From the NCBI GenBank assembly GCA_902626645.1, contig CACOGC010000003.1:62001-126000 (forward strand): a stretch of DNA of 64,000 nucleotides. Direction: 5' to 3'. This document shows, in pieces, positions 11,880 through 14,621 of the stretch (position 1 is its first letter; every line of letters begins with the position of its first letter). The position numbers and the translations under genes are program-made. This DNA is from an uncultured Pelagibacteraceae bacterium (GTDB lineage: Bacteria; Pseudomonadota; Alphaproteobacteria; Pelagibacterales; Pelagibacteraceae). Under the pieces are notes generated by a model, which worked only from the letters and a program-made list of their open reading frames with translations, searched no databases and had not been told where the DNA came from.

Positions 11880-12533
11880 CAAACTGTTCAAAATTTAATA
11901 AATATTAAAGAAGAAATAAACTCCAATTTAGCTAATAAAAAAAATTACAAAATACCAAAAATTATAGCTGTTTCAAAGACTTTTGGTATAGATAAAATAT
12001 TGCCATTAATTGAATATGGACACTCTGATTTTGGTGAAAACAAAGTTCAAGAGGCAATTGGTAAATGGAGTGAGCTTAAATTAAATAATAATAATATAAA
12101 ATTACATCTCATAGGAGGTCTTCAAACAAACAAAGTCAAATTAGCTGTTAAATTATTTGACTATATTCACTCTGTAGATAGTGAAAAACTTGCAAAAAAA
12201 ATATCTGAGGAGCAAGATAAACAAAATAAAAAAGTAAAAGTTTTTGTTCAGGTAAATATTGGCAATGAGGACCAAAAATTTGGGGTGGATAAATTGTTAG
12301 TTCCTGAGCTTTGTAATTATTGTAAAACTCTTGATTTAGAAGTGGTTGGGTTAATGTGTATCCCGCCATTAAATGAACCATCAGAAATTTATTTTAAAGA
12401 GATGAGTGAGTTGAATAAAAAGTTAAATTTTAAAGAATTGAGTATGGGGATGTCCTCAGACTATTTAAATGCAATTAAAAATTCTGCCACTTATGTGAGA
12501 ATTGGATCAAAGATATTTGGTGAAAGAAATTAA
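11874..12533 (+). CDS. YggS family PLP homeostasis protein
   Basis: Pyridoxal-phosphate-binding protein of the YggS/PROSC (COG0325) family, which controls PLP and amino-acid homeostasis and has no firmly known reaction. The 219-residue protein has the PLP lysine in AVSKTFG (K35), the GENKVQEA block, HLIGGLQTNK and a C-terminal SMGMSSDYLNAI block, all typical. Its ATG occupies the same ATGCAT hexamer as the start of the divergent TenI-like gene. Its TAA shares a TTAA with the stop of the convergent YkuD gene. Confidence 0.93.
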   Translation: MHQTVQNLINIKEEINSNLANKKNYKIPKIIAVSKTFGIDKILPLIEYGHSDFGENKVQEAIGKWSELKLNNNNIKLHLIGGLQTNKVKLAVKLFDYIHSVDSEKLAKKISEEQDKQNKKVKVFVQVNIGNEDQKFGVDKLLVPELCNYCKTLDLEVVGLMCIPPLNEPSEIYFKEMSELNKKLNFKELSMGMSSDYLNAIKNSATYVRIGSKIFGERN

Positions 12534-13024
12534 GTAATTTGAATTTTTGTTTTTTTGTTGATTAATTTTAACATTATCAAAAAATCTTTTTTTTTCATAG
12601 CAATACATCCAAGTGTAGGTTTGTAATTATTTGTAAGGTGAATAAAGATACAGCTTCCCTTAAATTTGACTGGTTTTAAAAAATTATATTTAATTGGTAT
12701 CAATAAATCATACTTATAATCTTTTCTGTAAAGTTTTTCGCATTTAATTTTTTTATTAAGTTTGATTAATTTATTATAATTTTTAAGATCGAATGGATTA
12801 TCACACCAACCCATATTCTTTTTAATTTTAATACACTTTAATTTAGAAGATGGTTTTTTTATCCTATCAGATCTATAGTATAAATCTTCAATTTCAAAAT
12901 AACCAATTGGTGTTTTTTTATCTCCTTCTTCTTTTTTTTTACTTTTACCATTTTTACCAATGGAACACCTGAATTTAAAATCGTCTACTTCAAGAGTGTG
13001 TTTATTTTTTAAGTAAATTATCAT
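12530..13024 (-). CDS. L,D-transpeptidase (YkuD) domain protein
   Basis: A short YkuD-fold protein (164 residues) with the catalytic His (H129, in CIFIHLTN) and the active-site Cys in TLGCIAM (C140), matching the family's His ... Ser-x-Gly-Cys pattern. Upstream GDKKTPIGYFEI fits the conserved Gly-x-x-Thr-Pro-x-Gly segment. No signal peptide is visible, which is unusual for peptidoglycan L,D-transpeptidases. It resembles the compact COG3786-type members. It is divergent from the degenerate response regulator 13 bases away, and convergent with yggS. Confidence 0.82.
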   Translation of the reverse strand: MIIYLKNKHTLEVDDFKFRCSIGKNGKSKKKEEGDKKTPIGYFEIEDLYYRSDRIKKPSSKLKCIKIKKNMGWCDNPFDLKNYNKLIKLNKKIKCEKLYRKDYKYDLLIPIKYNFLKPVKFKGSCIFIHLTNNYKPTLGCIAMKKKDFLIMLKLINKKTKIQIT

Positions 13025-13037
13025 ATTCTATAGCTAA

Positions 13038-13604
13038 ATGAATAATCATAATCTTGTAATTTATGAATTTGATGAACTATATAAGATTTTAGTTGAAATT
13101 AAAAAAGATATAAATCTTAGTTTTGAAAAGGCAAATAAACAAAAACTACCTGATCTGAATTCTAAAACCAATTATTTAGTATTTACTAAAAAAGAAATAC
13201 CTGGTTTGAATAATCAAATAGTTTTTAACGACTTTCCTATACCAATTTTTAAACTATTAGAAAAAATTAATATTGAATTCATTAAAAAAAAATTTCAAGA
13301 ACAATCTGATATTACAATTGGTAACTATAATTTTAATTTGAATTCACGTGTGATGTCTTTTGGAGAAAATAAACTTAAACTTACAGAAAAAGAGATAAAT
13401 TCAATATTATATCTTTTTAAAATTGAAAAAGAAGTCAAGATACAAGAATTACAAACTGAAGTTTGGGGATATCAATCTCAATTAGAAACTCATACAGTTG
13501 AAACACATATTTATCGTTTGAGAAAAAAAATTTCAAAAACTTTTAATGATCAAGATTTTATAATTAGCAAAAAAAATGGTTACAAAATTAAAAAAGAAAA
13601 ATAG
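13038..13604 (+). CDS. OmpR/PhoB-type winged-helix protein with degenerate receiver domain
   Basis: A 188-residue protein. The C-terminal part (about 105-185) is an OmpR/PhoB-type winged helix: LTEKEINSILYL, VWGYQSQLETHTVETHIYRLRKKI, then the wing GYKI. The N-terminal part (1-95) has the size of a receiver domain but shows no phosphoacceptor Asp in the expected context and no conserved acidic pair, so it probably works without phosphorylation. No histidine kinase is adjacent. It sits 13 bases from the divergent YkuD gene, which could be a target (inference). Its last 29 bases overlap the small arfA-like gene in another frame. Confidence 0.75.
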   Translation: MNNHNLVIYEFDELYKILVEIKKDINLSFEKANKQKLPDLNSKTNYLVFTKKEIPGLNNQIVFNDFPIPIFKLLEKINIEFIKKKFQEQSDITIGNYNFNLNSRVMSFGENKLKLTEKEINSILYLFKIEKEVKIQELQTEVWGYQSQLETHTVETHIYRLRKKISKTFNDQDFIISKKNGYKIKKEK

Positions 13605-13695
13605 ATTTGCTAAAGATCTTTTTTCCAAGAAATATAAGCCTAGAATAATTAAACCCAAAAAAGGTAAAGGAAGCTTTAAAAGAATAAAAAATTAA
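13576..13695 (+). CDS. ArfA-like alternative ribosome-rescue factor (39 aa)
   Basis: A 39-codon ORF starting inside the end of the winged-helix gene and ending in the TTAA shared with the PfkB gene stop. The protein reads FAKDLFSKKY ... KPKKGKGSFKRIKN. This matches the ArfA pattern of a Leu-Phe segment followed by Lys-Lys-Gly-Lys-Gly-Ser-Tyr-x-Arg, the part that sits in the empty mRNA channel of stalled ribosomes. E. coli ArfA, active after truncation, has the same block followed by more residues; here the protein stops soon after it. ArfA would recruit RF2 to non-stop ribosomes. The motif and position suggest a real gene, but family membership needs a profile search. Confidence 0.68.
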   Translation: MVTKLKKKNRFAKDLFSKKYKPRIIKPKKGKGSFKRIKN

Positions 13696-14621
13696 AGTCT
13701 TGCACCAATTTGTTGAATCACTTTTGATGATAATGTAGTTGCTTGCTGTAAACATTCTCCAGTAGGCTGATTATTTATAAAACCATGTAAATAACCAGCA
13801 GCAAAAAGATCTCCAGCACCTGTTAAATCTTTAATTGCGAGATTTTTATTTGCCTTTATCTCAGTGATTTCATCCTCAATAATTGAAATTGCACCTTTTT
13901 CTCCACGCGTGATTACAATATGTTTTTTTATTTCTTTCACAAAAGTTATGACTTCATCAAAATTCTTTGCATTTATTAACGCCATTATTTCACTTTCATT
14001 TGCAAAAGTTAAATCTAATTTTTTTTTTACTAAATCTAAAAAATTTTGTTTATGTCTTTCTACACAAAACAGATCTGATAATGACATCGCAACTTTTTTG
14101 GCATTGTCAATTGCTTTTTCAAAAGCTTTTTTTGGTTCTCCCTCATCCCATAAATAACCTTCTAAAAAAATTAATTCACTTTTTTTTATAATTTTCTCAT
14201 CCACGTCATTCGCATTAATTTTTCCCGCTATACCTAAAAAAGTACACATAGTCCTTTCAGAGTCTGGAGTAATTAAAATCAGACAAGTACCTGTTGGAAG
14301 ACTTTCTTTTTTTTTTGTATAATAATAATTAACATTTTCCTTTTTAAGTCCTTCCTCATATTGAGTCCCAAAAATATCATCAGACACTTTTCCTATAAAC
14401 CCAACATCATTTTTGAGTTGAGATAGTCCAACTATAGAGTTAGCAACTGAACCTCCCGAAACAGTTTTTTCAATTTTAAGATTTGCTAAAATATCTTTAA
14501 ATTCTGATTCATCAAAAATCAATTTCATTGTACCTTTTGTAAGATTTTTTTCTTTAATAAAATTCTCATCAACTTTACAAATCACATCAACTATTGCGTT
14601 TCCAATACCAAGAACTTTCAT
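13692..14621 (-). CDS. PfkB family carbohydrate kinase (adenosine kinase-like)
   Basis: Ribokinase/PfkB-family sugar or nucleoside kinase, 309 residues. Visible are GNAIVDVI at the N-terminus, the substrate-binding SGGSVANSIVG segment, and the second PfkB signature DLTGAGDLFAAGYLHG with catalytic Asp in GAGD (268-271). The N-terminal block and CTFLGIAGKI segment resemble the alphaproteobacterial adenosine kinase-type branch, but the substrate cannot be settled from sequence. It starts one base after the nth stop and is probably cotranscribed with nth and dapB. Confidence 0.85.
   Translation of the reverse strand: MKVLGIGNAIVDVICKVDENFIKEKNLTKGTMKLIFDESEFKDILANLKIEKTVSGGSVANSIVGLSQLKNDVGFIGKVSDDIFGTQYEEGLKKENVNYYYTKKKESLPTGTCLILITPDSERTMCTFLGIAGKINANDVDEKIIKKSELIFLEGYLWDEGEPKKAFEKAIDNAKKVAMSLSDLFCVERHKQNFLDLVKKKLDLTFANESEIMALINAKNFDEVITFVKEIKKHIVITRGEKGAISIIEDEITEIKANKNLAIKDLTGAGDLFAAGYLHGFINNQPTGECLQQATTLSSKVIQQIGARL

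Follow-up and report, generated by a model that had tools for sequence, protein, structure and literature searches.

The arfA locus

The window, i.e. the whole stretch of 64,000 nucleotides from a Pelagibacteraceae genome that was analyzed, contains a small open reading frame (ORF) between a winged-helix gene and a gene for a PfkB-family kinase (Table 1), exactly where the initial annotation had located an overlooked frame of 39 codons. The C-terminal end of the deduced SAR11-type peptide, which has 39 residues, reads KPKKGKGSFKRIKN. In many relatives' loci, too, the YkuD gene adjoins the winged-helix/arfA pair; it is a neighbor standing outside the system.

Table 1. Genes in the arfA region of the window
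Feature	Position	Strand	Basis	Remarks
L,D-transpeptidase (YkuD) gene	12530-13024	-	Pfam	divergent, upstream of the winged-helix gene
winged-helix gene (PF00486, Trans_reg_C)	13038-13604	+	Pfam	upstream of arfA, shares 29 nt with the arfA start
arfA-like gene	13576-13695	+		ATG at 13576, 39 codons (39 aa), TAA at 13693-13695; core KPKKGKGSFKR = codons 26-36
PfkB-family kinase gene	13692-14621	-	Pfam, synteny	convergent, stop codon shares 4 nt with the arfA stop

Relationship to ArfA

At E ≤ 10 the window peptide matched a single Pfam family, ArfA (PF03889), with 22.9 bits (E 5.9e-5), which is just below the cut-off of 25.5. A six-frame search of the whole 1.1-Mb genome with PF03889 gave one match, and this was the frame described here (E 1.8e-4). 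The family was also matched at E ≤ 1 by all aligned same-locus orthologs (29/29; best E 2.6e-8). PF03889 matches were present in 45 of 101 relatives, 29 of the 45 being above the cut-off; they were found in 45 of the 61 members of the window's genus and in none of the 40 relatives outside it. The profile search proposed in the initial annotation thus recovered ArfA, with a sub-threshold copy in the window and many orthologs above the threshold. A search of NCBIfam with the window peptide gave no match, phmmer against solved structures yielded one insignificant match to a ribosomal protein (E 4.4), and PHROGs gave a weak match to phrog_37108 (E 0.045). Identity with ArfB/YaeJ was rejected, since the peptide has 39 residues and no GGQ release-factor domain.

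By hhalign, the ortholog family was aligned with E. coli ArfA (YhdL, b4550; PF03889) over 34 columns without a gap (residues 11-44, E 4.9e-7). The score was 34.2, compared to 6.9 for ribosomal protein L36, another basic peptide used as a control. Hence, the homology covers the N-terminal, RF2-contacting part as well as the tail. ArfA alone is not expected to fold. Both proteins have the core K.KKGKGS[YF].R in common, and RF2 is available to the SAR11-type peptide. The close agreement with the ArfA core (Lys-Lys-Gly-Lys-Gly-Ser-Tyr-x-Arg) claimed earlier was borne out, the basic motif KKGKGS[YF]xR occurring in the window peptide as KKGKGSFKR at codons 28-36. Positions N9, K13, L15, K26, K28, K29, G30, K31, G32, S33 and R36 were invariant in 29/29 orthologs, which had been chosen with the ArfA profile so that core invariance among them carries that selection. 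The Leu-Phe segment that had been noticed in front of the core stood in part: L15 is invariant (29/29) and aligns with L20 of E. coli, but L24-F25 of E. coli lie opposite K19-Y20, and F16 is not conserved.

The two proteins differ in length and at one N-terminal position. As had been pointed out, the frame is shorter than that of E. coli ArfA and ends soon after the core: it comprises 39 instead of 72 codons, with its own stop at the equivalent of residue 44. The KH motif (His45) and the hydrophobic, dispensable C-terminal extension of E. coli ArfA are missing. In all 121 ortholog ORFs, 13 to 20 codons (14 in 74 of them) separate the first Lys of the core from the ORF end, and the peptides stop at equivalents of E. 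coli residues 43-50 (74/121 at 44). For the E. coli protein it has been reported that a form of 40 residues is inactive, that the last 17-18 residues can be removed with full activity kept, and that structures resolve just 46-48 residues (PMC8012679). The SAR11-type tail is about four residues longer than the inactive form and is therefore near that length, not below it. Furthermore, the exchange A18T abolishes release by E. coli ArfA (PMC8012679), and in the ungapped alignment the Ala18 position is occupied by Lys13, a lysine which is invariant in 29/29 orthologs. It is conceivable that this ArfA homologue merely plugs the empty mRNA channel without activating RF2, for instance to regulate or protect idle ribosomes when cells starve and grow slowly. 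The replacement of Ala by Lys, the tail close to the minimum length and the missing KH motif would fit such a role. On the other hand, the invariant N-terminal motif positions N9, K13 and L15 are as expected if the contact to RF2 has been kept.

Synteny and selection

A total of 121 loci (31 + 80 + 10) were compiled, which had been chosen by ArfA-like matches and the core pattern and in which some genomes are present twice. Because of this choice, core conservation in the 121 loci is not independent evidence. The tblastn used for synteny missed arfA in five of 124 loci (L007, L026, L027, L030, L208), in which the frame was found otherwise. A winged-helix gene upstream and a convergent pfkB gene downstream of arfA were detected in 114 of 119 loci; the five exceptions consisted of two loci without a winged-helix match, two without a pfkB match and one without both. 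Of the 114 syntenic loci, 101 have the three genes in direct succession, and 13 contain an extra 0.4-0.7 kb. The same gene order was encountered in genera g7 and g8 (8/8 loci, immediately adjacent in six) and in one locus of genus g5, where both flanks of arfA contain an insertion of approximately 1.5 kb; in the second g5 locus pfkB lies outside or is unmatched. In 105 of the 106 host loci that could be measured, an ORF longer than 120 codons lies upstream and shares 1-29 nt with the beginning of arfA; in the remaining 15 loci the overlap was not measurable. The winged-helix gene and arfA are probably co-transcribed and translationally coupled. At its other end, arfA overlaps a convergent neighbor by 4 nt in both organisms, mscL in E. 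coli (L245, 4432-4435) and pfkB in SAR11. In addition, a gene for a DNA-binding regulator precedes arfA in both (zntR in E. coli, the winged-helix gene in SAR11). The two resemblances are possibly a coincidence.

The same-locus comparison advised in the initial annotation showed that relatives keep the frame at this site; given the ArfA profile match as well, neither of the two outcomes named there as refuting the interpretation occurred. The comparison included a test for purifying selection. Across 112 distinct ortholog blocks, entropies at the three codon positions were 0.385, 0.308 and 1.035, and a dN/dS of 0.138 was calculated from 28 codons of the 112 distinct sequences among the 121 ORFs, using 1,381 of 3,000 sampled pairs after 1,619 that were out of range or failed had been dropped. 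The entropy peak at the free third positions, together with the low dN/dS, indicates that the protein is under selection. This bears on the question of whether the frame is a lysine-rich chance ORF or a decaying pseudogene. It is very short and K-rich, belongs to an AT-rich genome, overlaps two genes and is missing in some relatives, all of which one might expect of a spurious frame. Yet the selection values, the conserved gene order, the similar stop position in 121/121 ORFs (chosen by their ArfA-like core) and the PF03889 match of every aligned member speak so clearly against this reading that its probability is close to nil. A chance ORF was rejected, also in view of the single six-frame match in the genome and the wide occurrence of profile matches in the order described below.

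Distribution in the Pelagibacterales

A profile built from the 29 orthologs (A1) matched 287 of 397 genomes of the order, including 116 of the 151 good-quality ones, and 9 of 13 genera. Six of these matches, of which four belong to genus g6 and two to genus g3 of family f2, were weak, with E values of 3.6e-5 to 8.9e-4. If these six (E > 1e-5) are left out, 281/397 genomes and 7/13 genera remain, all of family f1. In the g6 genomes with a readable locus (L237, L238), there is no arfA between the winged-helix gene and pfkB. A scan of genome contigs revealed at least 426 relatives among 598 candidate stretches. The best 80 loci, which were kept and do not form a random sample, are all named Pelagibacteraceae, Pelagibacterales or Candidatus Pelagibacter, and the closest named locus among the matches listed belongs to a Pelagibacteraceae bacterium (L036; 97% identity over 39 residues). 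The arfA-like gene is thus widespread in the family and not peculiar to the window genome. Twelve members of the window's genus without an arfA match were followed up; in 10/10 readable loci pfkB comes right after the winged-helix gene. Since arfA is cleanly absent there, the gene is dispensable.

Related peptides in other Alphaproteobacteria

Within the class, A1 matched 16 of 385 genomes, three of them in the window's family, and a broader profile matched 25/385. Six frames from outside SAR11 were tested with PF03889. Three exceeded the cut-off (L209, 28.3 bits; L217, 27.3; L214, 25.9), L213 fell just short of it (25.3 bits) and L215 and L221 were poor matches. Other frames lack GKG, and some match DUF7230 (PF23876), which scored above its cut-off in 5/385 class genomes. 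DUF7230 members are small Lys-rich peptides of the type NPxAKxL...(Y/F)...VV..KK.Y.RK; they differ from ArfA by the missing GKG of the core, and the window peptide has no DUF7230 match. A group of peptides lacking GKG (A3), two members of which are over the DUF7230 cut-off, aligned with E. coli ArfA by hhalign, the gap falling exactly at GKG. The score was 33.9 compared to a maximum of 16.1 in 60 shuffles. This offers a lead, but the score is not fully independent because A3 was partly chosen with a profile containing E. coli ArfA. Peptides of this kind (NPxAKxL...VVK.KK.Y.RK), alignable with ArfA without GKG, were seen at L210, L215, L256, L257, L277, L279 and L283. Those of L256 and L257 are over the DUF7230 cut-off, and the remaining ones have a weak DUF7230 match or none. 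The L283 peptide comes from a SAR11 genome (G102) without arfA at the usual site and is encoded at another place.

Phage copies

The scan of viral contigs disclosed at least 150 relatives among 600 candidate stretches. In the best 80 frames, which were kept and again are no random sample, the core is retained, and 12 to 117 residues were counted from the first core Lys up to the C-terminus. Eleven of the 80 have 78-117 residues after this Lys and run into a C-terminal domain (L184:2938-3288, L193:2986-3411, L160, L163-L165, L168, L189, L191, L194, L195). In the two tested (L184, L193), PHROGs assigned the domain to phrog_17747. The name DUF6321 that had been considered for this domain was dropped, since Pfam does not assign it. 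An ArfA fusion protein in marine phages is possible. Of ten ORFs flanking phage arfA genes, six had no match in PHROGs, and in two contigs arfA is located beside a clamp-loader gene (phrog_168). Local hairpins at 78 phage frames had a median of -8.6 and a strongest value of -21.8 kcal/mol. Strong hairpins (-20 to -22 kcal/mol) lie in or just past the frames of L152, L154, L156, L157, L193 and L194, unlike in the SAR11 hosts. In some phages, nonstop regulation of arfA is possible.

Phage-encoded ArfA is already in print. Gene product gp30 of pelagiphage HTVC027P (MN698241) was named ArfA by means of PF03889 and is reported to reach high expression at early and late stages of infection (PMC12753301); its GenBank label is 'hypothetical protein'. 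It contains NPVAKEVRTPKYKSQIIKPKKGRGSFKR, with a core nearly identical to that of the SAR11-type peptide (PF03889, 20.2 bits), but has 58 aa with an additional N-terminal stretch, and its gene adjoins that of the terminase small subunit. Another marine phage gene, g10 of Citromicrobium phage RXM, was named ArfA as well (PMC8953757). A tblastn search of phages with the 39-mer did not give a match, even though HTVC027P gp30 was in the searched set; the low-complexity filter or the short query is the likely cause. The range of ArfA in viral contigs seems to be wider than the two reports suggest.

These data also touch upon the origin of the gene, as distinct from its function. The Pelagibacteraceae may have gained arfA from a phage, or phages may have taken up the host gene more than once. 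Viral contigs encode closely similar ArfAs, their core being KPKKGKGS, none of the best 80 viral loci matches any of the five host neighbor proteins (80/80 without a match), and outside family f1 the order yields two weak matches only. On the other hand, the divergent ArfA-like frames of other Alphaproteobacteria make vertical descent with losses a possibility, too, and a tree would probably not be resolved by some 36 alignable residues. Exchange between phage and host is a tentative and rather unlikely reading of the gene's history. A similarly doubtful, far-reaching idea is that the minimal ArfA is part of a large unrecognized ArfA superfamily of Alphaproteobacteria and phages, including GKG-less peptides resembling DUF7230. 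Marine phages might then carry and swap these genes, some of them fused to phrog_17747, and thereby keep host ribosomes free in the course of infection, while the SAR11-type peptide might be constitutive and perform RF2-dependent rescue beside tmRNA instead of as its backup.

Ribosome rescue and regulation

In agreement with the check for ssrA and arfB recommended at the outset, the other rescue factors of the genome were analyzed. The window genome (94.7% complete) encodes an alpha-type tmRNA with the predicted tag ANESYAIAA (L032:1524-1833) and SmpB. It contains two RF-1-family proteins, one of which possesses the RF2 signatures SPF and GGQ (L034); a third protein of this family was not found in the 94.7% of the genome covered. 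The ArfB model did not score above its cut-off in any of the 101 relatives. Its matches (NF006718), among those listed, were rejected as ArfB: they covered 33-36 of 140 positions, and the frames had 145-390 codons (335-375 in most cases, 5,795 in one), as is to be expected for RF1/RF2. None was over the cut-off. All 31 genomes tested, arfA-bearing and arfA-lacking alike, contain tmRNA. RF2, tmRNA and SmpB, with ArfB not found, are the setting expected for an RF2-dependent backup to trans-translation.

In E. coli, arfA is expressed from a nonstop mRNA that is cut at a hairpin within the ORF and is hence controlled by tmRNA (PMC8012679; PMC3989581). The strongest local minimum free energies (45 nt) in the 121 SAR11-type loci had a median of -5.2 and an extreme of -14.9 kcal/mol, compared to -24.3 kcal/mol for the E. 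coli control, and the fold z at the window arfA locus was -0.95. Thus, in contrast to E. coli arfA with its in-ORF RNase III/terminator hairpin giving rise to the nonstop mRNA, none of the 121 orthologs contains a hairpin of near E. coli strength inside the ORF. A scan for terminator patterns gave nothing at the window locus but was uninformative, as the E. coli hairpin escaped it, too. With its own stop codon after the core and no comparable hairpin, SAR11 arfA probably does not respond to a failure of tmRNA, and the peptide probably stands outside the tmRNA switch. The channel-plugging role considered above would be compatible with this, since there is no sign of nonstop regulation and the peptide may thus be synthesized even when tmRNA is working. 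The presence of RF2 in the genome argues against it, and altogether this role is improbable, though less so than a spurious frame.

Discussion

ArfA has been assigned to some of the beta- and gammaproteobacteria (PMC8012679). A survey of 2024 reported arfA in 0 of 2,376 Alphaproteobacteria and called the gene restricted to Gammaproteobacteria, some Betaproteobacteria and 10 species of the Bacillus group (PMC11633108). In those parts of the open-access literature that were searched, no paper on a chromosomal arfA of SAR11 was found, but solely one on an ArfA encoded by a phage and others using the word in a different sense. The suggestion that a SAR11-type genome contains a minimal ArfA holds with respect to homology and gene identity, and a function can be proposed by analogy. 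With a probability of about 0.82, we regard the window frame as a true arfA gene which belongs to family PF03889, encodes a minimal form of the protein and would serve as an RF2-dependent rescue backup, its activity being assigned by homology.

The basic tail of ArfA enters the empty mRNA channel, and RF2 is recruited to release the peptide with its GGQ loop (PMC8012679). By homology, the SAR11-type peptide, if translated, would bind to stalled ribosomes in the same manner, with the basic tail in the vacant mRNA channel, RF2 being recruited and activated and its GGQ loop freeing the nascent chain. It would back up tmRNA-SmpB in a lineage in which ArfB was not found. Its level would probably depend on the winged-helix/arfA operon and on coupling with the upstream gene whose end overlaps arfA, and not on a switch comprising nonstop mRNA and tmRNA.

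With ArfA in the majority of the Pelagibacteraceae genomes searched as well as in marine viral contigs, RF2-dependent rescue would reach beyond its known range. Pelagibacteraceae dominate the ocean plankton, and the finding suggests what may be the backup of tmRNA where no ArfB is found. SAR11 arfA would be a natural test both of the shortest working ArfA and of life without a tmRNA-controlled hairpin switch.
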